Source of the DNA: a virus
IMG/VR virus record: IMGVR_UViG_3300007512_002494
Location: 1-21,930 of that record
Reading direction: 5' to 3' (one strand)
Length of the DNA: 21,930 nt
Shown: positions 1,822 to 16,135 of the stretch, in pieces
Layout: every line of letters begins with the position of its first letter
Numbering within the stretch: the stretch's first letter is position 1
Program-made: the position numbers and the translations under genes
The notes under the pieces: model-generated
Told to the model about the DNA's origin: nothing
Database searches by the model: none
What the model saw: the letters and a program-made list of their open reading frames with translations, nothing else

Positions 1822-3351
1822 TTATTGAACAGTTTGTTCTAATGCTTCTAATTTATCATCATTTTGATCAAATGTATCTGCATCGTTATCGTCACCTACG
1901 TCTTCGACTTCAAATAGCGAATTAAATACTGCCGCAGACGATCTACGAGTGCGTTTATCACTAATATCTGCAAATAGTCCTTCTGCTTTTTCAATTAGTG
2001 TCATAGGATTTTCTGCTTTAAATATATCTTTACATACTTCGTTAAAGTAAATTAAATTACGTGGCACCCAAGGACTAAATTCATCTTCGTTGCCTGTTGC
2101 TTTTACTTTACGCCATTCTGTAATTTTAGGTTTATGCACAATACTTGCACAATCTGCAAGTATGTTGGCACGTTGTACAGATTCTATATGCTGATATACA
2201 TTATGTGCCATCATAAGAAAGTAACTGAAACTATCCCAACTAGTTTTACCTTCTTTGCCTAGTTTGTTTAAGTCACCTGGCTTGTAATAACAAATGTCGC
2301 CCATTGTCATACGTTCTGCAATAGGACTGCTCCACGGACACGGAATATCACTACCTGACAAATCTTTTGTATCTACTGCTTTGTCCATTATATAACTAAA
2401 GCGATTGTTTCTATGTACATGTTGTGTGTACATTTGTCCATGTGCTGTTGCTATAAAAGGACTAGCACAATCAAATGTAACCATCATATCTTCGTTTACA
2501 TGCTCACGCAAACAGCGTTGTATAGTTGTAAGCATACATGCCCAATCTAAACGTGATGTACCTAAGAAGTGTATGACATCGTTTTCGCCTTTTTCTAATA
2601 ACTTATCGTCACGCAAAACAATCATCCTACGTAAAGCAAGATATATATTCCGCATATTATTAGAACCAAATGCCCAACCTTCAAATGGAAAATGCTTTAC
2701 TGCATTATACCATTCAGTTGCAGAAGCCCAATCCATACCATGCAAAGCATTTAGAAACTTTACATTTCCTTGTCTGTGCTTAACGAACCAATCGTTATTA
2801 TACAATGTGGCTTTGAGTGTTTCGGCATAACTAGACATTTTTGTCCGTTTACGGTTAACGGGATCGGCAGCCCATGACGGTATGTCCAGTACGAGGGCAT
2901 AGTCAGCGGTATGCTCGAGCCAATTAAGAATCTTACTCCTAACGGCATCAGCATTACCAATATAATTAATATCACCAGGCTTTTCATAAAAGTTCTCCCA
3001 GTCAAAGTTAATAATACCTTTACCTATCTGGAATCCGCCACTATCAGCAAGACACCAAGTCTTTTGTTTGTCACGCTTCTGTACCATGCTTTCTTCGACA
3101 TCGCTTTTTGCAATATCAAGTTGTGCATGACCTGCAGAATACAATGACCATTTGTAATTAAAATACCCTTTATCTGCATTAAGAAAATTACAGCCTTCTA
3201 TACCATTTTCAAACTCCGCAGGAATTCTGTCCTTAGGAACATACTCTCCGTGTTGTTGTTTAGATATAAATGTATTATAAAATCCACTTATACTAGGAAG
3301 AAAGACTGCATAATCTCTATTGCTTTCTGTTAAGTTTTTCCTAGTCTTCAT
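1822..3351 (-). CDS. dpdA: DpdA/TGT-like DNA 7-deazaguanine transglycosylase
   Basis: TGT-fold enzymes swap guanine for a 7-deazaguanine; DpdA members act on DNA and some phages use them to protect their genome. TGT landmarks appear in order: LADSGGFQIGKG (101-112, with Asp103), VLDIPSW (Asp156), FLNALHG (199-205), EGWAFGS (224-230), FLGTSR (262-267) and MVTFDCASP (Asp294, matching the TGT nucleophile segment FDCVMPT). The Gln of the TGT VQGG segment is not conserved (LHGM), and I see no Cys-x-Cys-x2-Cys zinc site. At 509 aa it is longer than bacterial TGTs. An acidic tail after residue 470 contains FNSLFEV, nearly identical to the polymerase C-terminus. The start overlaps the clamp stop by ATGA. 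No preQ0 synthesis gene is in the window. Fold assignment is fairly sure; DNA as substrate is inferred from the phage setting. Confidence 0.82.
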   Translation of the reverse strand: MKTRKNLTESNRDYAVFLPSISGFYNTFISKQQHGEYVPKDRIPAEFENGIEGCNFLNADKGYFNYKWSLYSAGHAQLDIAKSDVEESMVQKRDKQKTWCLADSGGFQIGKGIINFDWENFYEKPGDINYIGNADAVRSKILNWLEHTADYALVLDIPSWAADPVNRKRTKMSSYAETLKATLYNNDWFVKHRQGNVKFLNALHGMDWASATEWYNAVKHFPFEGWAFGSNNMRNIYLALRRMIVLRDDKLLEKGENDVIHFLGTSRLDWACMLTTIQRCLREHVNEDMMVTFDCASPFIATAHGQMYTQHVHRNNRFSYIMDKAVDTKDLSGSDIPCPWSSPIAERMTMGDICYYKPGDLNKLGKEGKTSWDSFSYFLMMAHNVYQHIESVQRANILADCASIVHKPKITEWRKVKATGNEDEFSPWVPRNLIYFNEVCKDIFKAENPMTLIEKAEGLFADISDKRTRRSSAAVFNSLFEVEDVGDDNDADTFDQNDDKLEALEQTVQ

Positions 3352-4094
3352 TTATTCATTGCTGGTAAAATATAATTATAAGTTGCAAGTCCGCTATCAA
3401 TAGAAATTTGCAATGCACCTTGATCTGAAATGCTCATTACACAGGTACCTGACATTCCTAACTTAAGAATACTTAGCACCTGTTGTAATGGCCAACTCCA
3501 GTTCTGCTTTAGTTCACCTTCTACATTCCTAGCAAAAATCCGCTTGCCAGCATGTCCGCTACCGTCGTCAGTACCAACGCCGATAACAACATTACCATTT
3601 TCAGTTCTAACCGAAAAGGTTGGCTCGATTGTTGCATAGATGCTTGCGATTTGGGCGAGCTCCTGAACAGATTGTTTAGTAGGTTCAAACGATACATTCC
3701 AGTTTACTCCTTTAAATTTAACTGTTTTAAGTTGTTGTTCTACAACTTCTTTGCTCATAAATCTATATTGATCTGTGTTACCATATTGATCTTCGAATGT
3801 CAACGACTCTAATACTTGTTCGCCATTGCGTTCACGATTGTTAACATTAATTTTACCTTCTTCTGCTTTATAGCTATCAAGATTAACAATACCATTTAGA
3901 AAGCCTAAGTTACCCATACCAAACTCGCCTACAAACTCGGCGACAGGGTTAGTAGTCTTTGCATTTAATATAACAGTTCTATCTGTATCCATGGCTTCAA
4001 ATGCCGTTTCTGCATCTGTTCCTGTTACTTTAACATTTTCAATGAAGCCAAGGCCAGCTGTGTGGTCGACTACATCCAAAAGAATATCTTTCAT
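3348..4094 (-). CDS. 45: sliding clamp, T4 gp45-like
   Basis: The product (248 aa; T4 gp45 is 228) has the layout of the phage clamp: a repeated beta-rich two-domain protein with no signal or membrane segment. In the first domain NLGFLNGIVNLDSY matches the gp45 region LNGFLGILSLV. In the second, strands around NVVIGVGTDD and the C-terminal stretch LQQVLSILKLGMSGTCVMSI to YNYILPA match the gp45 C-terminal region in order and spacing. In T4 the clamp is a trimeric ring that holds gp43 on DNA and activates late transcription. The gene has its own consensus promoter, a TAGGAG ribosome binding site and an ATGA overlap with the DpdA-like gene. The clamp loader genes 44 and 62, which lie next to gene 45 in T4, are not in this window. 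Similarity was judged by eye, so confidence is good but not complete. Confidence 0.8.
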   Translation of the reverse strand: MKDILLDVVDHTAGLGFIENVKVTGTDAETAFEAMDTDRTVILNAKTTNPVAEFVGEFGMGNLGFLNGIVNLDSYKAEEGKINVNNRERNGEQVLESLTFEDQYGNTDQYRFMSKEVVEQQLKTVKFKGVNWNVSFEPTKQSVQELAQIASIYATIEPTFSVRTENGNVVIGVGTDDGSGHAGKRIFARNVEGELKQNWSWPLQQVLSILKLGMSGTCVMSISDQGALQISIDSGLATYNYILPAMNK

Positions 4095-4150: not shown

Positions 4151-4657
4151 TTAAAACTTAGACATAAATTTTGCGAGTTGATTTACAAATGGTAACAGAA
4201 TAACTGCCATAAGCATATTAACTCCTGTATGTACCATTGCAATTTGTTTTGTAATACCAGTAGGCATTCCGTCGGATACTAAAAGTCCTGCCAACCAAAT
4301 AGTGCCAGTAGTTCCTATGTTTGCTCCAAGAACTGCTGCTATTGCTGCTGGAAGTGGCAATGCTCCGCCTGCAACTAATCCTATAATTGCAGTAGTAGAC
4401 AATGAAGACGATTGCCATAATAGTGTCATTATGATTCCACCAACAAACATATAAATTGGATTACCCAAAAACCATTGAAGGTGATCTATGTTTCCCATTG
4501 CTTTCATTCCGCCTGAGAACATTTTTAAACCAATGTAAAATATTACTAAACCTAGTAATGTTTGAATAATAGGATTATTAAATTCCATGCTCTGAACCTT
4601 TTTGATTAATTTTGCTTTCTTACTTACTTTCATTTCAAAGTTATTTATAGTTGTCAT
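4151..4657 (-). CDS. half-size Na+/phosphate cotransporter (NptA/PF02690-like)
   Basis: A membrane protein of 168 aa with about four hydrophobic segments after residue 28. It carries the family signatures WQSSSLSTTAIIGLVAGG (QSSS at 82-85) and VLGANIGTTGT (GANIGTT 111-117). Complete bacterial NptA-type transporters have two such repeats and often a PhoU-like tail; this protein has one repeat and no tail, so it would have to work as a dimer if it transports Na+ and phosphate. The ATG at 4657 has no Shine-Dalgarno, and a perfect late-promoter motif (4642-4649) lies just inside it. The ATG at 4585 (MEFNNPII), preceded by AAGG at good spacing and directly before the first helix, may be the real start. 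It is the last gene of the island. Confidence 0.82.
   Translation of the reverse strand: MTTINNFEMKVSKKAKLIKKVQSMEFNNPIIQTLLGLVIFYIGLKMFSGGMKAMGNIDHLQWFLGNPIYMFVGGIIMTLLWQSSSLSTTAIIGLVAGGALPLPAAIAAVLGANIGTTGTIWLAGLLVSDGMPTGITKQIAMVHTGVNMLMAVILLPFVNQLAKFMSKF
4642..4649 (-). promoter_or_regulatory. T4-type late promoter motif TATAAATA
   Basis: The minus strand reads TATAAATA, a perfect match to the T4 late promoter consensus recognised with gp55 in T4. It lies a few codons inside the longest frame of the phosphate transporter. Transcription would start near 4635, just upstream of the internal ATG at 4633 and well before the ATG at 4585, fitting a shorter protein. In AT-rich DNA an 8-mer can occur by chance, so this rests on motif and position only. 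Confidence 0.45.
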
Positions 4658-4671
4658 GTTAAAATTATGTT

Positions 4672-4688
4672 ATCATTTAATTTTCGTA
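4672..4688 (-). repeat. third copy of the palindrome half-site (17 bp)
   Basis: TACGAAAATTAAATGAT on the minus strand repeats exactly the sequence at 4708-4724, which contains the last codons and stop of the IPNS-type gene. It lies just 3' of the 39-nt palindrome. The region therefore holds a direct, an inverted and a second direct copy of the same gene end, followed by the phosphate-transporter start. Confidence 0.9.
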
Positions 4689-4690
4689 AT

Positions 4691-4729
4691 AAGAGTACGA
4701 AAATTAAATCATTTAATTTTCGTACTCTT
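4691..4729 (-). repeat. perfect 39-nt palindrome, RNA hairpin at the end of the IPNS-type gene
   Basis: The arms begin AAGAGTACGAAAATTAAA (4729-4712) and end with its exact reverse complement (4708-4691), giving an 18-bp stem with a 3-nt loop centred on base 4710. The left arm is coding: it contains the end of the IPNS-type gene and its stop codon. No run of U follows, so it is not a standard intrinsic terminator. It is more likely to affect mRNA end stability or to have arisen by template switching. Confidence 0.92.
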
Positions 4730-5660
4730 GATGCTTAGGAATATGTTGCTCGCCTTGCATAACAATCTCTGCACTTGGAATATAATCTGTATCGTGCGAT
4801 AAAGATAAACGCCATTTAAGATATTCATAAGCATTAATAGGATCGTACTTGGCTGGTTCGTTTGTAATATTTTCTACAGTAGTCCTACGTCCAGCATCAA
4901 CAAAATATGGCATTGATATTCTATCTTTTGTCATGTCTGAGTTCACAACTCTATGTGGTGTAGATTTTAATGTGTCGTTTGTCCATCGTTGTAATAAATC
5001 ACCTGTATTCATCACAATCGAGTTTTCTACTACAGGTACGTCTATCCAGTCTTTTTGTTTTCTATCATATACTTGCAAACCAGGAGTGTCGTCAAATCTC
5101 CATAGTAATGTACAAGTGCCATAATCAGTATGCGAACTACCTCTTATTTGTCCTGGTTGTATTTCTCCGTCATAGGCAGGATAACGTATCATTCTCATTG
5201 TAGAATTGCCATGTAAATGTTCTTCAACTAATTTTCCCCTAGGCAAGTCAAACATCTCTTCAAACATATAAATGAAGTCGTAACTTAATAACTCTGCTAT
5301 ACGTAGAATCTTTTGAGCTAATGGTTTGAATTCAGGTATGTCTAAAGGATAATATTGATCTGTCATACGATCAGGTGTAACCCAATTATATGTTTCTTTT
5401 AAGTCTCCAGGCGAGTCGGGATTTGTTCGTTCAAAACCCATCCAATGATAACCAATGTTATCTTCGACTCCGCTATATTTGTTCTTCTGTTTTGTTTCTA
5501 ACTGTAAGTCAAAGAACTCTTGCATAAGTTGTTTCCAATCATTAAACTCTGGTAACCATTGATTATAAACATTTGTAAAAACTGCAAAACCACATGTACT
5601 ATAAGCATTATACATCTTAGGTACAATGTCTTTATCGTTCCAATCTATTATTGGTATCAT
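4713..5660 (-). CDS. IPNS-type 2-oxoglutarate/Fe(II) oxygenase
   Basis: A full-length (315 aa) non-haem iron oxygenase of the isopenicillin N synthase/DIOX family. Residues 1-110 fit the N-terminal DIOX domain (MIPIIDWND, TCGFAVFTN). The catalytic domain has the facial triad His177-x-Asp179 (SSHTDYGTCTLL) and His236 (STPHRVV), with Arg247-x-Ser249 (RIS) for the 2-oxoglutarate carboxylate. It is expected to be cytoplasmic. The substrate cannot be read from sequence; the family includes enzymes acting on nucleobases, amino acids and small acids. From memory, relatives sit near nucleobase transport genes in alphaproteobacteria, which would fit this island, but this needs a neighbourhood search. 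Its start overlaps the preceding propeller gene by ATGA, and its last codons form one arm of the 39-nt palindrome. Confidence 0.9.
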   Translation of the reverse strand: MIPIIDWNDKDIVPKMYNAYSTCGFAVFTNVYNQWLPEFNDWKQLMQEFFDLQLETKQKNKYSGVEDNIGYHWMGFERTNPDSPGDLKETYNWVTPDRMTDQYYPLDIPEFKPLAQKILRIAELLSYDFIYMFEEMFDLPRGKLVEEHLHGNSTMRMIRYPAYDGEIQPGQIRGSSHTDYGTCTLLWRFDDTPGLQVYDRKQKDWIDVPVVENSIVMNTGDLLQRWTNDTLKSTPHRVVNSDMTKDRISMPYFVDAGRRTTVENITNEPAKYDPINAYEYLKWRLSLSHDTDYIPSAEIVMQGEQHIPKHQEYEN

Positions 5661-6688
5661 TTAGGTCCCTCCGGATATCTATGGGCTTTGAAGCAACTAT
5701 TATGTTCACCAGTAATAAACTTATTAAGTGGTTCTGGATATTCTGCAAAGTCGGGTATAACATATTCCCATACAGTTTCTCCTTCTGGTGTAACTTCAAA
5801 TAGTCTGCCAAAAGCACTTTCACAAATAAATGTATTGCCATTCCATAATCGTTCTACACTACCCATATATGGCGAAAAGAACGCAGGAGGCATGTCGTCT
5901 ACATAACTCCATACTAACTCTTTAGTGTTAAGATTAAATTCTACGATACGTGAATGATGTATTGAACCAGGACGAATATTACCATTATCAAAACATAACA
6001 AACCATTTTCTGTTATAACAGGACAATGTTGTTGTGCAACTTCTGGGTATTTAACTTCAAAAAAACGAAATCCTGTTTTTTTATCTATACCTATGATACC
6101 AGATGATGTACGCAAACTCAAGTAAACAATATCATTATATTGGTATACTCCATTTATCATTGGCCAATGATCATCATTAAAGCATTCATGAATAGGATAT
6201 TCTTCTTTTGTTAAATGCTCCCATGCTCTCCATTCCCATACAACTTCACCTTTGCGATTTACTTCCCTTACAATATCAGATTGTCCCTCCCATTGTTTAA
6301 TAGGTACTTCTGCTGCAACTGTATAGAGCAAATTACCATTGTCTAACCATTGAGCATCATGATGATGATATATGTCTTCATGTTCCCAAACAATATCGCC
6401 ATCAGGTGTTGCTTCCATAAAGTGACCACCATGCCAAATATCCCATGCAGGATATAAATGAGCAGATCGTTCATTGCTACCATTATAACCTAAATTGCTG
6501 TTTGGTAGTATAACTGCATCACGCCCTGGTCGCACAGGCATTTGCCATTCATGTTCTACGTTACCGTATATATCAATTAATACTACCCGGCCGTTTCCTG
6601 TTTGTGGAGCATACAAGGTAAATCCGCCTGCATTTCCTCCCGTTAGATGTGTTAATCCTAGTTTTCTTCTTTTAATTGTACTTTTCAT
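5657..6688 (-). CDS. arylsulfotransferase (ASST)-like beta-propeller protein
   Basis: The 343-aa protein is built of repeated WD-like blades of the ASST type: RVVLIDIYGNVEHEWQMP, GDIVWEHEDIYHHHDAQWL then NGNLLYTV, KGEVVWEWRAWEH, KELVWSYVDD, WNGNTFICESAFGRLFEV and EGETVWEYVIPDF. The HHHD-x3-LDNGNLL segment (about 108-121) is typical of these proteins. ASST enzymes move sulfate from a phenolic donor to a phenol and are usually periplasmic. Here there is no signal peptide (basic start MKSTIKRRK), so a cytoplasmic role or a non-sulfotransferase role is likely. It is flanked by two unrelated 2-oxoglutarate oxygenases with ATGA overlaps on both sides, implying equal expression and a joint pathway or complex. 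The fold is well supported; activity is not. Confidence 0.78.
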   Translation of the reverse strand: MKSTIKRRKLGLTHLTGGNAGGFTLYAPQTGNGRVVLIDIYGNVEHEWQMPVRPGRDAVILPNSNLGYNGSNERSAHLYPAWDIWHGGHFMEATPDGDIVWEHEDIYHHHDAQWLDNGNLLYTVAAEVPIKQWEGQSDIVREVNRKGEVVWEWRAWEHLTKEEYPIHECFNDDHWPMINGVYQYNDIVYLSLRTSSGIIGIDKKTGFRFFEVKYPEVAQQHCPVITENGLLCFDNGNIRPGSIHHSRIVEFNLNTKELVWSYVDDMPPAFFSPYMGSVERLWNGNTFICESAFGRLFEVTPEGETVWEYVIPDFAEYPEPLNKFITGEHNSCFKAHRYPEGPK

Positions 6689-7437
6689 ATAAGACCTGCT
6701 CTTTCATGAATAAATTTAATTATTTTTTCATCATTTTTTTGTTCTAATCGCGGAGCAAATAACGCCTTAGGCCTTCGTTCAGCATTTTTTGTAGATTTAA
6801 TCATATAATATACGGCCATAGATTGTCTGTATATATGATCTGGTTGTTTAGTATGCACAGGTAAACCATGCCAGCCATTTTGAGAAACATCAAATAAAAC
6901 TGCTCGGTTAAAAATTGGCATAATACTTTTTATTTTTTCATTGGGTAAATTATTTTTTTCATCATGTGACCAAAATTCCAACTGACCGTTCCATTCTTCT
7001 TTCCATTCTGGATTCATATAAATTATTAAATTTAATTTTCTCATTGTTCCCAATTTTGGATGTATAGAATAATCTTTATGCATATTTAAAATGCCGTTGG
7101 TCGGATGAAAATGTAATCCACCACCATGTAATCCAATATCCGGTATCAAATTATCAATGCCACTTATTTTTTGCAATTTTGGTATAAAATCTGAATTAAG
7201 ATAATAAAATGCACGGTATGTTGTTCTCTTAAATAGATCCCAATGAGGGATAGCGATCTTATTTTCTAAAGGTGAAAGATAACGTGTAACCATTTTATTT
7301 TGTGGCATATCACTCATTTCTGATAATAATTCTTTTGCTATATCTTCAGACCAAAAATTATCGATGACAACATGATCAAATGGTTCATTTTTTACAAATT
7401 TTTTATTTAGATCTTTAAAGTCTAAAATTGATATCAT
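6685..7437 (-). CDS. prolyl-4-hydroxylase-type 2-oxoglutarate/Fe(II) oxygenase
   Basis: This 250-aa protein has the double-stranded beta-helix core of the P4H-type family. The iron ligands are His120-x-Asp122 (LNMHKDYSIHPKLG) and His190 (SQNGWHGLP), with Arg204 (HIYRQSMAVYY) as the likely 2-oxoglutarate contact. Between them are the typical strands KLNLIIYMN and WNGQLEFW. Proteins of this kind hydroxylate prolines, sugars or small molecules; phages of T4 type often encode relatives of unknown target. It is unrelated in sequence to the IPNS-type enzyme two genes away. Its start overlaps the permease stop by ATGA and its stop overlaps the propeller start in the same way. Alternative substrates include a virion protein or a lipopolysaccharide sugar. 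Family is sure, substrate unknown. Confidence 0.87.
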   Translation of the reverse strand: MISILDFKDLNKKFVKNEPFDHVVIDNFWSEDIAKELLSEMSDMPQNKMVTRYLSPLENKIAIPHWDLFKRTTYRAFYYLNSDFIPKLQKISGIDNLIPDIGLHGGGLHFHPTNGILNMHKDYSIHPKLGTMRKLNLIIYMNPEWKEEWNGQLEFWSHDEKNNLPNEKIKSIMPIFNRAVLFDVSQNGWHGLPVHTKQPDHIYRQSMAVYYMIKSTKNAERRPKALFAPRLEQKNDEKIIKFIHERAGLI

Positions 7438-8195
7438 GCTATCTCCGATTCATGCCATTTGCGTAATAAAAAATGTCCTAATGTTGTGACCATCATAAAA
7501 AATGCAAACCCCATAATTGTTGCAGATAATATTAATGCCATTACTAATGCAGTTTCTAATTCTGCTTGGGCATATATAATTTGCACTCCTAGGCCTCCTG
7601 CCATACTTCCACTACCAATAATAAACTCTCCTACTATTGCACCAATTACAGAAAGTCCTGCAGATATTCTTAAACCTGCTATAATATTTGGTATTGCGGC
7701 AGGTAATCGTAACTTGTAAAATGCAACTAATCTTGATTTATTATGTAACCGAAATAGTTCTACTAAATTTATAGATGTAGATTTAAGACCTAGTAATGTG
7801 TTATTAATAATTGGAAATAAAGATATAATAAAACTAACAATAATAACAGACCGCATTTCAAAGCCAAACCATAATACTATTAAAGGTGCAACTGCAACAA
7901 CCGGTACTGTTTGTAAAAGAATAGCATATGGATAGAAACTACGTTCTAGTATCTTTGATTGGCTCATAATCGCCGCTACTGTAATACCTATAAGAATCGC
8001 CGATAGATAACCAAATAATGCTTCTTGTATTGTTATACTGGCACCTATTACTACAATTTCAAAATCATTAATAAATGCTTCTGCCACTGCCATTGGCCCA
8101 GGTAACATAAATGGTAAGTTATACATATGTGCAGCCACAGACCAAATGAATAAAAATAAAATTAAAACTAATATAGGTGGTAAAATATTTTTCAT
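7434..8195 (-). CDS. ABC importer permease, SsuC/TauC/ThiX type
   Basis: An inner-membrane permease of 253 aa with about six helices, full length for the family. The cytoplasmic EAA loop that docks to the ATPase is visible as ELFRLHNKSRLVAFYKLRLP then AAIPNIIAGLRIS (about 145-178). The N-terminus (LPPILVLILFLFIWSVAAH) is the first helix, followed by the family-typical PFMLPGP segment. It pairs with the ATPase at 8275 and the binding protein at 8992. This class imports sulfonates, taurine, nitrate or thiamine-pyrimidine precursors, so the subfamily alone does not give the substrate. It overlaps the next gene, a P4H-type oxygenase, by ATGA. Possessing all three ABC parts is unusual for a phage. 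Confidence 0.92.
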   Translation of the reverse strand: MKNILPPILVLILFLFIWSVAAHMYNLPFMLPGPMAVAEAFINDFEIVVIGASITIQEALFGYLSAILIGITVAAIMSQSKILERSFYPYAILLQTVPVVAVAPLIVLWFGFEMRSVIIVSFIISLFPIINNTLLGLKSTSINLVELFRLHNKSRLVAFYKLRLPAAIPNIIAGLRISAGLSVIGAIVGEFIIGSGSMAGGLGVQIIYAQAELETALVMALILSATIMGFAFFMMVTTLGHFLLRKWHESEIA

Positions 8196-8198
8196 TAT

Positions 8199-8273
8199 TC
8201 ACCTGCTTGCGTAGTAAAATATAATACCATATATAATAATAAATGCACAACCGTAAATAATAATTGTTCCCAT
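8199..8273 (-). CDS. possible 24-aa single-helix membrane peptide
   Basis: The gap between ATPase and permease genes contains an ATG frame of 24 codons whose product is nearly all hydrophobic (MGTIIIYGCAFIIIYGIIFY, then YASR), a plausible transmembrane helix with a basic end. The start is one base after the ATPase stop, with a weak GGA upstream, and the stop is three bases before the permease ATG. It could be a small accessory subunit, a coupling device or chance in AT-rich DNA. Confidence 0.35.
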   Translation of the reverse strand: MGTIIIYGCAFIIIYGIIFYYASR

Positions 8274-8274
8274 T

Positions 8275-8988
8275 TTATTTCCATGTTCGTAACTTTCCTG
8301 AGATATCGTTTACTAATTTAGTAAATTGAGTTTTTGATCTTAAGGCTTGAGTTCGTTGCTTAAATGGTATTTTTACATCATATGTAATTTTACCAGGTCT
8401 AGGTGACATTACAATTACACGGTCAGACAAATATACTGCTTCTGTTACATTATGTGTAACAAGAATGGCAGTAAACTTTTCTTTCTTCCATAGCTCATGT
8501 ATCTCTTCTTGTAATACTTCTCTTGTTAATTCGTCAACTGCTGATAAAGGCTCATCTAATAATAAGTATTCTGGTTTCAGCACCAACGATCTAGCAAGAG
8601 ACAATCGCATTTTCATACCACCTGATAGTTCGTGAGGGTATCGCTCTTCAAAACCTGTTAATCCTACTTGTGCTAATGCTTGTTCTGCTTTATGTTTACG
8701 TTCTACTTTGTCTACTTTTTCTAACTCCATTAATAGTTCTACATTTTTTTGTACTGTTCGCCAAGGTAACAGAGCTGCATCTTGAAAAACAAATGCACCT
8801 TTGTCTGGCTTTTCTGTATTACCATTAGATGGAGAAGTTATATCTGCAATAATTCGAAGTAAAGTAGATTTGCCGCAACCGGATGGTCCTACTACTGTAA
8901 TGAATTCGCCTGCGGCAATATCTAAATTTACTTCTGATAGTGCATGAACTTCATCAAAATGTTTTGTGACGCTCTTTACACTAATCAT
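8275..8988 (-). CDS. ABC importer ATPase, SsuB/TauB/ThiZ type
   Basis: A complete nucleotide-binding subunit of 237 aa: Walker A GPSGCGKST (34-42), Q-loop FVFQDAALLPW (Gln69), signature LSGGM (121-125), Walker B YLLLDEP (141-147) and H-loop His179 (VTHNVTEA). The ALLPWRTVQKNV segment is typical of the nitrate/sulfonate/taurine/thiamine-precursor import group. It would energise the permease encoded 80 nt downstream. The gene begins 3 nt after the binding-protein stop. All catalytic residues are present, so it should be active. The only oddity is the context, an ABC ATPase of cellular type inside a phage replication region. Confidence 0.94.
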   Translation of the reverse strand: MISVKSVTKHFDEVHALSEVNLDIAAGEFITVVGPSGCGKSTLLRIIADITSPSNGNTEKPDKGAFVFQDAALLPWRTVQKNVELLMELEKVDKVERKHKAEQALAQVGLTGFEERYPHELSGGMKMRLSLARSLVLKPEYLLLDEPLSAVDELTREVLQEEIHELWKKEKFTAILVTHNVTEAVYLSDRVIVMSPRPGKITYDVKIPFKQRTQALRSKTQFTKLVNDISGKLRTWK

Positions 8989-8991
8989 ACC

Positions 8992-9924
8992 TTAGTTAAA
9001 ACAACCCTTCTTAAAAGATGTGTCATAAGAGTCATGTGGATTAAAATCGGCCGGTAGCACGTCAATATCTTTTAACTGCTTCGAAAGCTCAACCCATCGA
9101 TTAGGATCTTGACATCCTATCTTGCTCCAATCTTTAGGAAGAAAATCTCTCTTCATAAGCTCAAGTGCATTCATATGAACAGCAGGTGTAACTTTCTTAC
9201 TCTTAGATAGAATTAAATCCATAGTAGGTTTTGGATCTACTAATGACTTGTGAAAGGAAATACTAAGACGATCGACAACTGCCTGTACCAATTCAGGTTC
9301 TTCTTTAATCATCTTATCACTTGTAAACAATACACTATATGGTCTATAACCTAGACTTTCTAAAGTAATTTGTTCGTTAGCAATTCCTTTTGCATCTAAT
9401 CTTGCAGGAAGAAAGATTGAATATCCCTGCTGAAATTGTCGAGGAGTTCTTGCAAACAACCCTAAGTCACCTGTTAAAGGAAATTCTTTGGCAGATACAC
9501 CATACTTATATTTTACCCATTTCCAATATGTAATTCCCATTACAACTGCAAAAGGTCTACCTTCTAAATCATTAACGGTTTTAATACCTTGATTAGGATG
9601 AAACACAAGAGTGTACGGCACATGATTAAGACTCACAAAAATTGCTTTGAGTCCTGCTCCTTTGGCATTAGCCATCATAACACTATCTGATCCGTTAAGG
9701 CCAAATTCGACTTGTCCGGATGCTACTGCGGTAGTAGTTCTAACTTTTGGACCACCGGCTTTAATTGTAATCTTCACATCATCGTGATATTGATTATCAA
9801 ATTGTGCTTGCCAGAATCCGCTTTGATTACCTTGTGGAAACCAATCCATGAGTAATGTAACTTCTCTAGCAAATGCAGACGTTGCAAATACAAATGCAAC
9901 TATGCTTACTAACAGTTTTTTCAT
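8992..9924 (-). CDS. periplasmic binding protein, NMT1/THI5-like
   Basis: The protein (310 aa) starts with a clear signal peptide (MKKLLVSIVAFVFATSAFA, cleavage before REVT). The mature part opens with VTLLMDWFPQGNQSGFWQA, the layout of NMT1/THI5-type binding proteins such as ThiY, which bind pyrimidine precursors of thiamine. Relatives bind other small nitrogen or sulfur compounds. It continues with the typical VASGQVEFGLNGSDSVMMA and VNDLEGRPFAVVMG. No lipobox Cys is present, so it should be free in the periplasm. A good AAGGAG lies before the ATG at 9924. It is the first gene of the three-part ABC importer and follows a purine-type phosphoribosyltransferase, which makes a nucleobase-like ligand plausible. 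The exact ligand is unknown. Confidence 0.9.
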   Translation of the reverse strand: MKKLLVSIVAFVFATSAFAREVTLLMDWFPQGNQSGFWQAQFDNQYHDDVKITIKAGGPKVRTTTAVASGQVEFGLNGSDSVMMANAKGAGLKAIFVSLNHVPYTLVFHPNQGIKTVNDLEGRPFAVVMGITYWKWVKYKYGVSAKEFPLTGDLGLFARTPRQFQQGYSIFLPARLDAKGIANEQITLESLGYRPYSVLFTSDKMIKEEPELVQAVVDRLSISFHKSLVDPKPTMDLILSKSKKVTPAVHMNALELMKRDFLPKDWSKIGCQDPNRWVELSKQLKDIDVLPADFNPHDSYDTSFKKGCFN

Positions 9925-9938
9925 TTTATCTCCTTGAT

Positions 9939-10517
9939 TTATGCCTGTACAGGCGGTTTAAAAACTGGTAATTTTTCTAAATATACCAAATCAGGATTTT
10001 CGTATCCTGCATCTTCTAGTAAAACTGCCGCTCTACAAACAACATTTGCTTCAACTTTGTTTAATAATTTTTCTACAGAGGCAATAGTGCCTCCTGTTGA
10101 AACCACGTCTTCTATAATAGCAACATTTTTACCTTTTATTTTATCAATGTCAACTTTATCTAATACAAGATTTTGTTCACCTATTGTTGTAATCGATTCA
10201 ACTTTTTCTGTTATTGGATCAGTCATATATCCTTTAACAGACTTACGTATAACAACATAATCTATTCCTAAATTTCTAGCACAAGCATGAATTAAAGGAA
10301 TTGCTTTTGCTTCAGGACAAACAAGATAATCTATACCGCTTACGGAAAATTTTGCAGTAAGATGTTCAGCACATCTCTCTACTAGCTCTGTATCCCCAAA
10401 CATAACAAAGCTCGCGATTGCGAGCTCGTCGTTAATCTTAACTTTGGGCAATTTGCGAGTGAGTCCTGCAACTGTTATCTCATAAAACTCATCTTTAAAA
10501 CTTTCGCCCCATGTCAT
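9939..10517 (-). CDS. purine phosphoribosyltransferase, APRT/XPRT-like
   Basis: A type I phosphoribosyltransferase of 192 aa. The PRPP loop is VAIIEDVVSTGGTIAS (about 132-147), with the two acidic residues Glu136-Asp137 before VVSTGGT. Upstream, LVCPEAKAIPLIHACARNLG and VVIRKSVKGYM match the substrate and flexible-loop regions of the APRT/XPRT group. The enzyme would join a free purine base to PRPP, giving a nucleotide for phage DNA synthesis. It lies directly after the NCS2-type permease (one base gap) and 14 nt before the binding protein, so transport and trapping of the base are encoded together. Whether it prefers adenine, xanthine or another base cannot be settled by eye. Confidence 0.88.
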   Translation of the reverse strand: MTWGESFKDEFYEITVAGLTRKLPKVKINDELAIASFVMFGDTELVERCAEHLTAKFSVSGIDYLVCPEAKAIPLIHACARNLGIDYVVIRKSVKGYMTDPITEKVESITTIGEQNLVLDKVDIDKIKGKNVAIIEDVVSTGGTIASVEKLLNKVEANVVCRAAVLLEDAGYENPDLVYLEKLPVFKPPVQA

Positions 10518-10518
10518 A

Positions 10519-11652
10519 TTATGCTCCCATCATGATCAGTTGAGTAACAAATCCTGCAACTAAACCATAAAAAGGATTAAACTTTGCAGTAACAAATGCT
10601 GTCGCACCAATAACCATTCCTGCTGGTCCAAATCCATATGGTCCTGCAAAGGAACCGCCAATGCTAATAGCGCCTGCAATATTTGTTGCAAACGTAACAA
10701 ACGCACCTAATACAAAAAGGAAACCTGCAATAGATGCTCTATGTACATATTGTCCTATCCACGGAAGTGCTTTACTTAAAAGGATAACTGCCATAATACC
10801 CATCATAATACAGGATGCAATAACAGCATTTGGAGCCGCTGCAGTACCTGAAATAATTGCTTCAACAGGTCCTCCACCAAAAAATGCCGAGCCCATATCT
10901 GCTAAACTAGAATAAATTGCAAGGTGATCAATATTGGTTTCTGCACCTGCAATAGAACCTGTAATTTTACCAAATGAAATGTTAGCACCGATATTTAAAC
11001 ATGCTAATGATAATGCACCAATAACAATGTTTCTATTTGTCCAAAAATCCCATTGGATATTACCTGTTGTAAATTTTTCACGTGACTTATCTACTACAAT
11101 TTCTTCTAATTCTACACCTAATTTTTCTCGTAATTCCTCATTAAATTTTAGTAATACATAAAAACCAGTAGATATAATTACAGACCAAATAATTGTTTGT
11201 GCTAAATCTTTTGTCCAAAACCAAACAAGCAATGCACTAATAACAGATACTCCACCTGTCCATTTTTCTGATTTAAATAAATCTACAGAAACATTTGCTA
11301 ACATAATACCTACACCAGCCATCATTGAAGTGACAACTAAAGGTCCTATAAAGTCAACTAATGCTTCATTCATTCCAAGCAAAGAAGGTATCAACAATAG
11401 AGCGGCACCCCAGAAAATCAATGAAAGTCGTTCTTTCATATTTTTACCTAGAGTACCGGCTAAAGTGATTGTTTCTGCTTGGAAGGAAATGGTTGCCACA
11501 GACATAAAGACTGCTGAACCGATGATACCAATGACAAATGCTATTGCCGTCGGGAACGCAGCGAAACCAAATGTTAACGCTAAAATACCCTGCGGAATAC
11601 CATTAATCACAACTGCAATTGCAGTTAGAATATTTTCCATCATTCCTTCCAT
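10519..11652 (-). CDS. NCS2-type nucleobase permease
   Basis: A polytopic membrane protein of 377 aa with 10-12 predicted helices, Gly/Ala-rich. Segments such as GPLVVTSMMAGVGIMLANVS, FGGGPVEAIISGTAAAPNAV and AGFLFVLGAFVTFATNIAGA resemble the NCS2/AzgA nucleobase-cation symporters, in which the glycine-rich segment after helix 8 lines the binding site. It is shorter than usual (E. coli members are about 430-480 aa) and has a soluble loop around residues 165-195 (FNEELREKLGVELEEIVVDK). It has a strong AAGGAG ribosome binding site. Its place between a nucleoside-binding protein and a purine phosphoribosyltransferase supports purine uptake. A more distant transporter family is possible. Confidence 0.75.
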   Translation of the reverse strand: MEGMMENILTAIAVVINGIPQGILALTFGFAAFPTAIAFVIGIIGSAVFMSVATISFQAETITLAGTLGKNMKERLSLIFWGAALLLIPSLLGMNEALVDFIGPLVVTSMMAGVGIMLANVSVDLFKSEKWTGGVSVISALLVWFWTKDLAQTIIWSVIISTGFYVLLKFNEELREKLGVELEEIVVDKSREKFTTGNIQWDFWTNRNIVIGALSLACLNIGANISFGKITGSIAGAETNIDHLAIYSSLADMGSAFFGGGPVEAIISGTAAAPNAVIASCIMMGIMAVILLSKALPWIGQYVHRASIAGFLFVLGAFVTFATNIAGAISIGGSFAGPYGFGPAGMVIGATAFVTAKFNPFYGLVAGFVTQLIMMGA

Positions 11653-11668
11653 GTTTTCTCCTTAGAGT

Positions 11669-12757
11669 TTATTTTATAGGGAATTGAGTTACAACACCTT
11701 CGACATAGTATTGCATTGTTTCAAGTTCAGGTCGCTTAATTACACCTGCCGCTACTTTGCTCCCATCTTGCTTTGTAACGCCTTGAGAAAATGGATACCA
11801 TTCATCCATTTCGTCGTTGATCCAATTCATTTTAATTGTCTCAACTTTATTTACTACTTCGCCTGGTACATTTTTACCCCATGGCGAAAGACCTACACAA
11901 TTTTCTTTTAACCCCCAATTCCATCGTTGACCCATTTGCAGTTTACCTTCGCTATATAGATCAGCAATACGTTTATACAATACATTCCAGTTAAACATCA
12001 TACCTGTGACATATCTATCTGGGCCATATTGTCCCATTGGTGCATCATTACCCATACTCCAAATTTCTTGTCCTTGTTCTGCACGTTGTTGTGCTAAGGT
12101 AACCACACTTGGAGAATCTGTAGTAGTAAAAAGAACATCGTTCTGTTGGTCTGCTAACACTTTTGCCGCATCCATGTCCTTTGGTGGATCAAACCAAGAG
12201 TTAATCCATATTACTGAAACTTTAACATCAGGATTAACTAATTGGGCCCCTAGTGTTAGAGCGTTAATGTTTCTAATAATTTCTGGAATTGGATGTGATC
12301 CTACAACTCCAATTTTATTAGTTTTAGTCATCATACCGGCGGCAATACCTGAGAGGTATCTTGCTTGAAAGGAATGACAAACATAATTGTCCATGTTCGT
12401 GTCATTGCCTTTGTAACCTGTGGCATGCATGAAGATTGTTTTTGGTCTTGATTTGGCCGCTCTTACCATTGGTTCCATGAATCCAAAAGAGGTACCAAAT
12501 ACAATATCATGTTTTCTTGAGAGCTTTTTAAATACTCGCTCACTATCAGCTTCTGCAACTGATTCTACGCCCTCTACATTATATCCATGTTTTGATAGAG
12601 AATGAAAACCTTGATGGTGCCTCATGCTCCATCCACCATCAGTAGATGGTCCTACTAGGACAAATCCAATGGATGCTTTTTTTGCAAGTAAATTACTTGG
12701 ACTTAAAATCGCCCCGAGTAGGGCGGCGAATGTTAGTATGCCTAAAATTTTCTTCAT
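11669..12757 (-). CDS. BMP/PnrA-family nucleoside-binding protein
   Basis: The protein (362 aa) has a signal peptide (MKKILGILTFAALLGAILSP, then NLLA-KK) without an obvious lipobox, followed by the BMP-family domain: KASIGFVLVGPSTDGGWSMR, GFHSLSKHGYNVEGVESVAE, DIVFGTSFGFMEPMV, FQARYLSGIAAGMMTKTNKI and QNDVLFTTTDSPSV. BMP proteins such as PnrA bind purine nucleosides outside the inner membrane and normally feed ABC permeases. Here no BMP-type permease pair is present; the next gene is an NCS2-type permease. The ATG at 12757 has a perfect GGAAGGAGG, which fixes this start although the coding region overlaps the end of the preceding phosphoribosyltransferase by 65 nt. Confidence 0.9.
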   Translation of the reverse strand: MKKILGILTFAALLGAILSPSNLLAKKASIGFVLVGPSTDGGWSMRHHQGFHSLSKHGYNVEGVESVAEADSERVFKKLSRKHDIVFGTSFGFMEPMVRAAKSRPKTIFMHATGYKGNDTNMDNYVCHSFQARYLSGIAAGMMTKTNKIGVVGSHPIPEIIRNINALTLGAQLVNPDVKVSVIWINSWFDPPKDMDAAKVLADQQNDVLFTTTDSPSVVTLAQQRAEQGQEIWSMGNDAPMGQYGPDRYVTGMMFNWNVLYKRIADLYSEGKLQMGQRWNWGLKENCVGLSPWGKNVPGEVVNKVETIKMNWINDEMDEWYPFSQGVTKQDGSKVAAGVIKRPELETMQYYVEGVVTQFPIK

Positions 12758-13250
12758 TTAATCCTCCTTCCGAGTCATTTTCTGTTTGTAGTGGACTAGA
12801 CCACCAAGCCTCCCATGGAAAGTGAATCCAAATTTTTCCTGAATCTTTTGCACAATCTCTTACCCAATAATGCGGTTTAAAGTCACATTCATTATTCCAC
12901 CAAAGGGTTGCGAAACGAACTTCTGTCTGCAATTCAACCATCGTAGGGTTCTTAATATGCTCTGACATTTTTACGAAAGTTTCGCCCGAATCACATATAT
13001 CATCAACGACTAATATACGGTCATCGGTTGGTTTAGGTAAGTATGTTTCCCAATGTGGGAAATCACGCAGACTTGCATGAATAGGTTTAAAAGGAAGGTT
13101 TAACCAATGTGATAACATGACTCCAGGTGTAAGGCCCCCTCGTGCAATACCTACAATTACTTGCGGCATATATTCTGAGAGTACTAGTTGTCTAACGATT
13201 GCGTTGACATCTAGCATCATGTCCTTCCAACTGTACCAGATATAATTCAT
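12693..13250 (-). CDS. xanthine-guanine phosphoribosyltransferase (Gpt)-like
   Basis: The order of motifs matches E. coli Gpt: YIWYSWKDMMLDVNAIVRQL (Gpt YIVTWDMLQIHARKLASRL), VIVGIARGGLTPGVML (31-46), the PRPP loop ILVVDDICDSGET (79-91) and, near the end, KIWIHFPWE (Gpt DTWIEQPWD). The product would convert guanine, xanthine or hypoxanthine to the nucleotide with PRPP. The Gpt match begins at the first residues, supporting the ATG at 13250 despite no clear Shine-Dalgarno. At 185 aa it is about 30 residues longer than Gpt; the extra tail (SPLQTENDSEGGLNEENFRH onward) is hydrophilic and overlaps the BMP gene start in another frame. It is the first gene of the island, 37 nt after a 58-residue gene. 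Confidence 0.87.
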   Translation of the reverse strand: MNYIWYSWKDMMLDVNAIVRQLVLSEYMPQVIVGIARGGLTPGVMLSHWLNLPFKPIHASLRDFPHWETYLPKPTDDRILVVDDICDSGETFVKMSEHIKNPTMVELQTEVRFATLWWNNECDFKPHYWVRDCAKDSGKIWIHFPWEAWWSSPLQTENDSEGGLNEENFRHTNIRRPTRGDFKSK

Positions 13251-13471: not shown

Positions 13472-16135
13472 CTATGCTATTTCAAATAATGAATCAAATG
13501 TGTTTGTGCTTTCTGTTTCCTTAAGGTCCCAGTTTAACACGCCAATAAGATTATCAATTTTCTTATTGATAATTGTACGCTCCATTTCTGTATGATCAAA
13601 TGGAAGATCTTTGTACCATTGCGGTAAATGCAATTCATCAATTGGATATGCTACACTTGTCATACCCATCGGATTATTCTTTAGTTTGCAAACAATAGTT
13701 TTCATACCGTCTGTAATTTCCATAGAATAATTATCTGAATATGCTTTGCGTAATCTATTCCAATTAATAGCGGCCATAACATGACCTACACCACATTTAC
13801 CTGTACGCTCAAACATGTTGGTATACTTTGTAAGGTTATTAACACGCTTAGGTGTACCTTTTTCCCAACCAGGGCGTTCTTTAAAATTCTCTCTAAATGA
13901 TTTTATTCTATCCAGAATATCAGTTTCTTGCTTGCCATCTAATACTTCAAACAATATTTCTTCTAAAAATCGTTGCATAAATTCTGGAGTATCACTACGT
14001 TTAAGATCTAAGCCCATGGCTTTTAGTTTTCCTGGTTTGCCATCGGTATCTTTGCGATTACCTTCTTGGTCATAAACTAGGATGCCATATCTTTTCTTTT
14101 TAATAAACAAACCTCTTGAAGCAACAATTTCCCTTGCCGCTGCAATAATTTCTCCACTTTCTATAGTAATACCAAATGTGTTATTCATAAACTGTGGAAA
14201 TGATGAATTTACTTCCTCGCCTATTGCATCATATAACTTTATCGCTTTCTCTTTATCCCATTCAACATTACCATTTGCTATTTCATCCTTGAGAGCTGGT
14301 ATAGCACTATAATAAACACTATCAGTATCACCATAAATGATAGTTGAACCCACATGATCGTACTCTCCTGTAAGTACCTTGTTGACCTGTGCGGACATAT
14401 GTTTTGCTATAGATCTGCCAGTCAACGTAACACTTTGACCCATCCTTAGGTCAAAAAATCTAGATCCTGGATTTAGAATAGCTCCATATAAACTATTTAA
14501 GTTAATTTTCTTTACAAGTTGTCTTTTATCCCAAAATTCTATCTTTTCTTTGTCGTTGGCGTCTATTGCTTCTTGCAAACTTTTTTGCATAACTTTACGC
14601 TCTGCATACCAACGCTCTAATAAGTTTGGAATAATACCTTTTATATCATGTCTAAAAATAGTACCGTTTGCGGATATACCCCACGGATTACCTTGATTGT
14701 GTATTAAGTCATATATCTCAGCACCTGTATATTGATCTGTTTCTCCGTTCTCCCAATCTACAGTAATCTTTTCTGCGACATCTCTATCTCGCACTAAATC
14801 AAATTCTAATGTGCAAAATATACCTTCCCATGCTTCTGCAAAACTAGATTTGTTACCCATTTTTTCACGTACCATGTTGTACGTTTTTTCTAGTCTGCAT
14901 TGTCCTATAATTGTTTCTGGTCCCATATTCATAGCACGAATTACACTAGGATATAGTGAATTCAAGTCCATAGAACCTATCCAATCATGCATTCCTATTT
15001 TTGGTTGTGCTACATAAGCACCTGCGGCAGTACTAAATTCGTCTTCGCTTTTTTGTTTTTTATCAGGTACTTGTAATCCTTGGCTATGTGCTTCGTTTAT
15101 AATTGCTTGGTCGCTAACTGCTACTGCCCCCATTGTTGTTTGCAGTAATACCGTATTAGCATGGGCTAACACATTTGCTAAATCAATGAACTGTAATTTG
15201 TCATCCATTTTCTTTAGCATCATTGTATCTTGTCTGTTGTATGCTATAAATTTTTCATAATCATTGTTATATAGTTGATCTAATGTACCTTCGTATGCTA
15301 CCTTAGTTTCGCCAATTTCATATTCACCTACTGCATCTAGTCTATAACTATGCATTTCATGATATGTATATTTGCGATACAATTCTAAATAATCTAAATG
15401 TACTCTACCTATTAAATCAAATGTTTCTAAATCTTTACCAAACTTTTCAAATTCTCTTTTGCGTGGATACTGCTTCCACAAACAAAAATCTCGCATACGC
15501 TCTTTGCCTAATACTCTAGCAACTCTGTTTACTGTATACGGAATATCATAACCTTCACTATTCCAACCACTTAATATGTCTGCATTTTCTATCATTGCTA
15601 AAAAGTTTTCTAGCAATTCTTCTTCTGTATTGCAGAGCATTGTGTTTTCAAATTTACCACATATTTCTTCTGCTTCTGTACGTTCTACAGTCTTAGGCCG
15701 TATAGTAAATGTGATTAGACTATCTAACCAACTGCACCACATTGTTACAGAATTAATCATAGAAAATGGATCAGACGGATCAGCAAAGCCCTTTTCCTGT
15801 TTAAAGTCTACTTCGATATCGAAGAAACACTTGTTTAAATTTGGCGCCTCTTTGCCTAAATAGTTGTCTTCTAAACAACGAAACACAGGATTAACATCCG
15901 ATTCAAACAATCGTTTATTACCTTGTAGTTTCTTTTCTTTATGAAATGCTTTACCGCTTGTAGTGCTTACTCTGCTAAGTGGAGTGCCAAATATGGATTT
16001 ATACTTGCCTCGCATATCTGAATAATAGAAGACATATCGAGCAGGATACGACATGTATTCACGCTTACCGTTAACACGCTCTACAATATGTATTGCGTCT
16101 TTTTCTCTTTCGAAGAAGGCGTCTACATAACTCAT
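13472..16135 (-). CDS. 43: family B DNA polymerase, T4 gp43-like
   Basis: The replicative polymerase with 3'-5' exonuclease; 887 aa, close to T4 gp43 (898). Exonuclease motifs: Exo I FFDIEV (Asp106, Glu108), Exo II GWNSEGYDIPY (Asp197) and Exo III YNRQDT (Tyr299, Asp303). Polymerase motifs: A MDLNSLYPS (Asp390), B KKINLNSLYG (about 542-551), C YGDTDS (601-606) and KKKRYG (689-694). All catalytic residues are present. The C-terminus ends TFDSLFEIA; in T4 the last residues of gp43 bind the clamp, so FDSLFE (880-885) is probably the clamp-binding peptide. The start overlaps the preceding small gene by ATGA. It is transcribed from the promoter at 16410-16438. No intein or split is seen. Confidence 0.98.
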   Translation of the reverse strand: MSYVDAFFEREKDAIHIVERVNGKREYMSYPARYVFYYSDMRGKYKSIFGTPLSRVSTTSGKAFHKEKKLQGNKRLFESDVNPVFRCLEDNYLGKEAPNLNKCFFDIEVDFKQEKGFADPSDPFSMINSVTMWCSWLDSLITFTIRPKTVERTEAEEICGKFENTMLCNTEEELLENFLAMIENADILSGWNSEGYDIPYTVNRVARVLGKERMRDFCLWKQYPRKREFEKFGKDLETFDLIGRVHLDYLELYRKYTYHEMHSYRLDAVGEYEIGETKVAYEGTLDQLYNNDYEKFIAYNRQDTMMLKKMDDKLQFIDLANVLAHANTVLLQTTMGAVAVSDQAIINEAHSQGLQVPDKKQKSEDEFSTAAGAYVAQPKIGMHDWIGSMDLNSLYPSVIRAMNMGPETIIGQCRLEKTYNMVREKMGNKSSFAEAWEGIFCTLEFDLVRDRDVAEKITVDWENGETDQYTGAEIYDLIHNQGNPWGISANGTIFRHDIKGIIPNLLERWYAERKVMQKSLQEAIDANDKEKIEFWDKRQLVKKINLNSLYGAILNPGSRFFDLRMGQSVTLTGRSIAKHMSAQVNKVLTGEYDHVGSTIIYGDTDSVYYSAIPALKDEIANGNVEWDKEKAIKLYDAIGEEVNSSFPQFMNNTFGITIESGEIIAAAREIVASRGLFIKKKRYGILVYDQEGNRKDTDGKPGKLKAMGLDLKRSDTPEFMQRFLEEILFEVLDGKQETDILDRIKSFRENFKERPGWEKGTPKRVNNLTKYTNMFERTGKCGVGHVMAAINWNRLRKAYSDNYSMEITDGMKTIVCKLKNNPMGMTSVAYPIDELHLPQWYKDLPFDHTEMERTIINKKIDNLIGVLNWDLKETESTNTFDSLFEIA

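Follow-up and report, generated by a model that had tools for sequence, protein, structure and literature searches.

The stretch of viral DNA analysed here (the window, 21,930 bases, from a marine phage) carries on its minus strand a gene for a 509-residue DpdA-like enzyme with a predicted tRNA-guanine transglycosylase (TGT) fold (1822..3351), a gene for a 248-residue protein with the predicted fold of a PCNA sliding clamp (3348..4094; phrog_12062, AlphaFold2 model), and a gene for an 887-residue family-B replicative DNA polymerase (13472..16135; phrog_262 at E 1.7e-195, PF00136). The DpdA-like gene follows the clamp gene directly, the clamp stop codon and the DpdA start codon sharing an ATGA (3348..3351, minus strand), as a sequence-only reading of this DNA had described; the same -4 overlap is found at the related loci L002-L005 and L013. 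A longer contig of 41,993 bases (G001) contains the whole window in reverse orientation at 99.96% identity and therefore represents the same virus population.

Gene order

At least 589 relatives of the window DpdA were matched in a scan of viral contigs; scans of these contigs with the homologue from PA5oct or from Vibrio phage 2.275.O alone as the query gave no matches. The order polymerase, clamp, DpdA recurs among the relatives: the clamp gene lies upstream of the DpdA gene, on the same strand and within 1.5 kb, at 112 of 116 loci (within 60 bases at 66), and the polymerase gene lies within 1 kb of the clamp gene at 100 of 105 loci. In most relatives the polymerase and clamp genes are thus neighbours, whereas in the window they are separated by roughly 9 kb of transport and metabolism genes (4151-13250), an insert that most relatives lack. 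It encodes a Na/Pi cotransporter, two 2OG-Fe oxygenases, an arylsulfotransferase-like protein, an NMT1-type ABC transporter, two phosphoribosyltransferases, a permease-like membrane protein and a Bmp/PnrA binding protein; speculatively, its purine-type phosphoribosyltransferases and PnrA might recycle guanine freed by base exchange. Two further features of the relatives deserve mention in their own right. Five of the long contigs (G007, G010, G012, G025 and G026) contain 11-18 radical-SAM domain matches each, an unusually high number for phages, and in PA5oct (L038:13608-18834) a Hef-like homing endonuclease splits the DNA polymerase into two reading frames, the second of which starts with intein-like sequence.

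The DpdA-like enzyme has a predicted TGT fold

Sequence searches of Pfam, PHROGs and the PDB returned no family for the window DpdA. An AlphaFold2 monomer model of the protein, made from 19 homologues, reached a pTM of 0.79; when this model was compared with the PDB by Foldseek, the top 50 matches were all tRNA-guanine transglycosylases (probability 1.00, E ~1e-5), and a viral structure library returned phage proteins annotated as TGT, that of Motura among them. Three aspartates at the catalytic signatures DSGG, LDxP and FDC, namely Asp103 (in DSGGFQ), Asp156 (in LDIP) and Asp294 (in FDCASP), show no variation across a diverse set of 43 homologues. In an hhalign comparison the FDCASP segment aligns, at low probability, with FDCVMP of E. 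coli TGT, which makes Asp294 (2470..2472, minus strand) the putative counterpart of the TGT nucleophile, Asp264 in the E. coli enzyme.

At the level of sequence profiles the relationships are weak. PF01702 was reached in three of the 43 homologues (E 0.046); the alignment with the Motura TGT, which is encoded in a QueC-QueE-FolE cluster, has an E value of 1.5e-6 and covers one segment only; that with DpdA2 of Vibrio phage nt-1 (0.0055, low probability) is local to the region of the catalytic aspartate; and hhalign gave no detectable profile similarity between the window enzyme and the DpdA of phage 9g. The assignment of the window enzyme to the TGTs rests on its modelled fold, and we regard the protein as the representative of a large, hitherto uncharacterised DpdA family.

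The genes that accompany the enzyme point to DNA as its substrate. Genes for FolE are present in 25 of 26 records of relatives, for a QueE homologue in 18 of 20 and for QueD in 11 of 20. In G001 the DpdA, FolE (26729-27265) and QueE homologue (29242-30063) genes all lie on one strand, the DpdA homologue of Vibrio 2.275.O adjoins QueF, QueC, FolE and QueD, and that of PA5oct is near QueE. Because of the FolE, QueE and QueD genes of the relatives, together with the Que genes of Vibrio 2.275.O and PA5oct, DNA is the likely substrate. The base that would be inserted is less certain, since QueC was detected in only 2 of 20 records; QueC-dependent preQ0 was set aside on this ground, and the base may instead be an intermediate of the pathway, for instance CDG.

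The neighbouring gene encodes a predicted PCNA-like clamp

The clamp protein matches phrog_12062, whose annotated function is 'unknown', and no family beyond this one was found for it in sequence searches of Pfam, PHROGs and the PDB. Its AlphaFold2 monomer model (pTM 0.86) has a two-domain PCNA fold and matches PCNA structures at E 3e-11, and its homologues adjoin the polymerase gene in PA5oct, Vibrio 2.275.O, Phosso, Atu_ph07, GAP32 and Munch. The term gp45-type, as applied to this clamp, describes the fold only, because hhalign gave no profile similarity between the window clamp and T4 gp45. A comparison with the clamp of the 9g-type phages by the same means likewise gave no similarity. The models support the view that phrog_12062 is a PCNA-like sliding clamp, for which a trimeric ring around DNA and stimulation of the polymerase would be expected, and would thereby provide a function for this family.

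A conserved motif in the disordered tail of DpdA

The DpdA-like protein ends in an acidic tail (residues 466-509; 1825..1956, minus strand), which contains a clamp-binding-type motif, FNSLFE, at residues 476-481 (1909..1926, minus strand). The disorder suggested from the letters alone was borne out by the model: pLDDT is below 50 from residue 466 onwards, and aspartate and glutamate make up ~32% of the last 35 residues vs 12% of the core. AlphaFold2 places the motif in this unstructured tail, not buried, and the possibility that it is a piece of the folded core was set aside on this ground.

To describe conservation, the 116 DpdA loci were reduced to 40 clusters at 80% identity and the last 65 residues of each were considered. 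Of these 40 tails, 34 contain the pattern F..[LMIF]F[DESAGTV], vs a mean of 0.94 in shuffled tails (maximum 6 in 500 shuffles), so that chance occurrence is excluded. Phe480 is present in all 40 clusters, Phe476 in 34 and Leu479 in 33; the flanks vary, and both TTT and TTC are in use as Phe480 codons. The motif positions carry 3.3-4.3 bits, compared with a tail average of 2.05. In more distant homologues the motif is kept down to ~41% identity (PA5oct) and is recognisable at ~30%, where it lies at the extreme C-terminus. The DpdA of one clade (L158, L159 and L174) stops at the motif, as NNFSSLFE, and some tails are degenerate (WQQNF in L014). A second conserved element, DDxLxxLE, lies at the very end of the tail (DDKLEALE in the window, residues 498-505; 1837..1860, minus strand), with 3.35 bits at Leu504 and 2.82 bits at Glu505 over the 40 clusters; it is absent from the clade in which DpdA ends with FxxLF.

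Among the 26 ORFs of the window, the strict pattern occurs in three C-terminal tails vs 0.11 expected: those of DpdA, the polymerase and the arylsulfotransferase-like protein. The last of these (AFGRLFE; gene 5657-6688) was considered as a further clamp client and rejected, the motif sitting in a repeat within a predicted folded domain. In PA5oct and six long relatives, this tail pattern is, among plausible genes, essentially restricted to those for the polymerase and DpdA.

DpdA and polymerase motifs resemble one another

The polymerase motif, FDSLFE, lies at residues 880-885 (13481..13498, minus strand), close to the end of the protein, and both it and the DpdA motif proved to be placed as first read. 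The class of motif is present at the polymerase end in 31 of 34 cluster representatives, and it resembles the C-terminus of T4 gp43, SLDFLFG; that this gp43 peptide binds the clamp, as the sequence-only reading stated, agrees with the T4 literature (PMC2988020, PMC7892883).

The two motifs of one phage resemble one another: DpdA 8-mers are closer to the polymerase motif of their own phage than to those of others (permutation p = 0.0006, a value from which phylogeny is not removed). In PA5oct, at 41% identity, DpdA has SFNSLFD and the polymerase ends in FDSLFGW; in Vibrio phage 2.275.O, DpdA ends in NNDLFGW and the polymerase in NTDLFDW, both of the form N-x-D-L-F-x-W. Phosso has a homologous clamp, a DpdA that is encoded far from it and ends only in VEGLF, and a polymerase with FNDLFTF. 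Related polymerase ends also occur in jumbo phages that have a homologous clamp and in which DpdA was not detected, FADLFGF in Atu_ph07 and the looser GFF[DE]W in GAP32 and Munch, which fits a peptide whose function is to engage the clamp.

A similar peptide in an unrelated DpdA lineage

The DpdA of phage 9g (L237:3007-3960), whose type has been tied experimentally to dG+ and dPreQ0 (PMC6884629), is likewise encoded next to clamp and polymerase genes, as are those of Seurat, MiCath, MMDA13, R31B, RHEph06, BcepGomr and Ssp-JY38. The gene order in these phages is DpdA, clamp, polymerase, opposite to that of the window lineage, and the clamp is a different one, the processivity factor phrog_947. 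The 9g-type proteins end in RLQDLFDE, RVQELF, RVMELF, SVADLFS and similar peptides (L237, L249-L328). All 60 distinct tails have [LM][FY] within the last 14 residues, and 44 of them have Q-x-[LM]-[FY]; LF occurs in the last 8 residues of 56 of 59 clamp-adjacent proteins, compared with 2.07 expected overall and at most 8 in 1000 shuffles. Among the 33 genes of phage 9g that were scanned, only that for DpdA has an LF-type end. Q-x-L-F is similar to the motif by which bacterial proteins bind the beta clamp.

A third set of DpdAs, of mixed composition, has [LM]F near the end in 2 of 57 proteins encoded without a nearby clamp. Where a beta-type clamp gene lies no more than 4 kb away, LF is found near the end in only 3 of 14; the others often end in GFGL or GFF, and these hydrophobic tails (L345-L358) are possibly another clamp-binding variant. 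The idea that the motif follows clamp adjacency in all DpdAs is weakened by the beta-type set, and the association is strong but not universal (Fisher 6e-23 with both sets pooled, which describes related sequences and is not a test). The expectation that the motif would be confined to phages with a gp45-type clamp was borne out in part: the 9g-type QELF ends lie beside another clamp family, and DpdA2 of nt-1, a T4-like phage, is without the motif. Nor does the published density of modification simply follow the motif, because Rosebush has 28% dPreQ0 (PMC6884629) while the DpdA of its close relative Arbiter is without it.

Taken as a whole, the comparison makes it probable, although with less confidence than attaches to the window lineage itself, that at least two DpdA lineages without profile similarity to one another have convergently gained a C-terminal peptide that would bind clamps of different families (PCNA-like and phrog_947), and that 7-deazaguanine exchange is coupled to the replisome, in 9g-type phages as well.

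A proposed role for the clamp in base exchange

We propose that the DpdA-type transglycosylase docks on the phage's own PCNA-like clamp through the F-x-x-L-F-[DES] motif of its tail, a reading to which we assign a probability of roughly 0.77. The flexible acidic tail would present the peptide to the clamp, where it would occupy the pocket used by the C-terminus of the polymerase; from there the enzyme would exchange guanine for a 7-deazaguanine base in phage DNA. Docking would place DpdA on freshly replicated DNA, which would be modified during or just after its synthesis; in an alternative placement, the enzyme would act on clamps left behind. Because the ring offers more than one equivalent site (three in the case of a PCNA-like trimer), the polymerase and DpdA could share one ring. 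The sequence-only reading had already proposed clamp-tethered insertion of 7-deazaguanine; the conserved motif and its counterpart at the polymerase end, the unstructured tail, the gene order, the FolE and QueE-like genes of the same virus and the predicted TGT and PCNA folds now support it, and neither of the outcomes named beforehand as speaking against it, loss of the motif in close homologues or its burial in the DpdA fold, was seen. Clamp binding, DNA as the substrate and modification at the fork are the steps that we infer.

Among the alternatives, the one that survives best, although we consider it unlikely, is that the tail binds the clamp for recruitment or regulation and not for modification at the fork: competition with the polymerase C-terminus could switch between synthesis and modification, as near-identical motifs imply competition for one pocket, or DpdA could be sent to leftover clamps for repair or late functions, much as the T4 clamp also tethers the non-replicative clients gp55 and gp33 (PMC2988020). 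The simplest role for a tethered base-exchange enzyme is, however, local action on new DNA, although the data separate neither possibility from the other. Slightly less probable again is that we are dealing not with a DNA-modifying DpdA but with a tRNA-guanine transglycosylase of the phage, or with some other enzyme of TGT fold. Its best structural matches are indeed tRNA-TGTs, QueC is mostly undetected, and we arrive at DNA by way of gene context; against this stand the fixed place in a replication operon, the clamp-type motif, the FolE, QueE and QueD neighbours, as in DpdA phages, and the weak profile similarity to the TGT of Motura's Que cluster. Least probable is that the motif serves for docking to something other than the clamp (SSB, a helicase, the polymerase or the second DpdA protomer) and is like the polymerase end by coincidence: the link to the clamp is one of sequence likeness and the DDxLxxLE element shows that the tail is able to bind more than one thing, but polymerase ends carry the same class of motif family-wide, the motifs of both proteins have moved to the C-terminus together in Vibrio 2.275.O, and the own-pair similarity, the adjacency of the clamp gene and the convergence in 9g-type DpdAs all argue against it.

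The proposal bears on the question of how phages that rely on base exchange modify their DNA fast and fully enough to escape restriction, without modified dNTPs. If it is correct, docking on the clamp would let an enzyme that works by base exchange keep up with the fork and remain with phage DNA, and two point mutations in the tail peptide would uncouple modification from replication while leaving catalysis untouched. Literature searches for DpdA or 7-deazaguanine together with the clamp gave, as judged by title and abstract, general papers only, within a coverage that is incomplete and leaves room for an earlier mention; the word 'clamp' is absent from the paper on 9g and nt-1 (PMC6884629).

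Comparison with known systems

Bacterial Tgt shares its fold with the window enzyme, and its FDC(V/A) nucleophile region aligns locally; the window enzyme differs in having no clear CxCxxC zinc motif, in its extra C-terminal helical region and tail, and in its phage replication context. DpdA2 of nt-1 is also a phage enzyme of the TGT superfamily, from a phage whose DNA modification was detected (PMC6884629), but its tail is without a clamp-type motif and its gene lies inside a preQ0 cluster instead of a clamp operon.

For the peptide, the closest parallel is in T4, where gp43, gp55 and gp33 bind the clamp through C-terminal motifs that can be freely exchanged for one another (PMC2988020, PMC7892883). 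The gp43 end is a hydrophobic-acidic C-terminal peptide of the same spacing as those of the window (LDFLFG vs FNSLFE and FDSLFE), and the T4 motifs lie in a flexible linker or terminal segment, as does that of the window DpdA (residues 466-505, pLDDT below 50); the clamp clients named in these two papers differ in that no base-modifying enzyme is among them. For the enzyme, the closest parallel is the 9g-type DpdA (PHROG 887, Queuovirinae; PMC6884629). It is smaller (~310 vs 509 residues), its clamp is phrog_947 and its peptide is QELF where that of the window is FxxLF, but it too is a TGT-type enzyme from phages with preQ0-pathway genes, encoded beside clamp and polymerase genes and ending in a clamp-type LF peptide.
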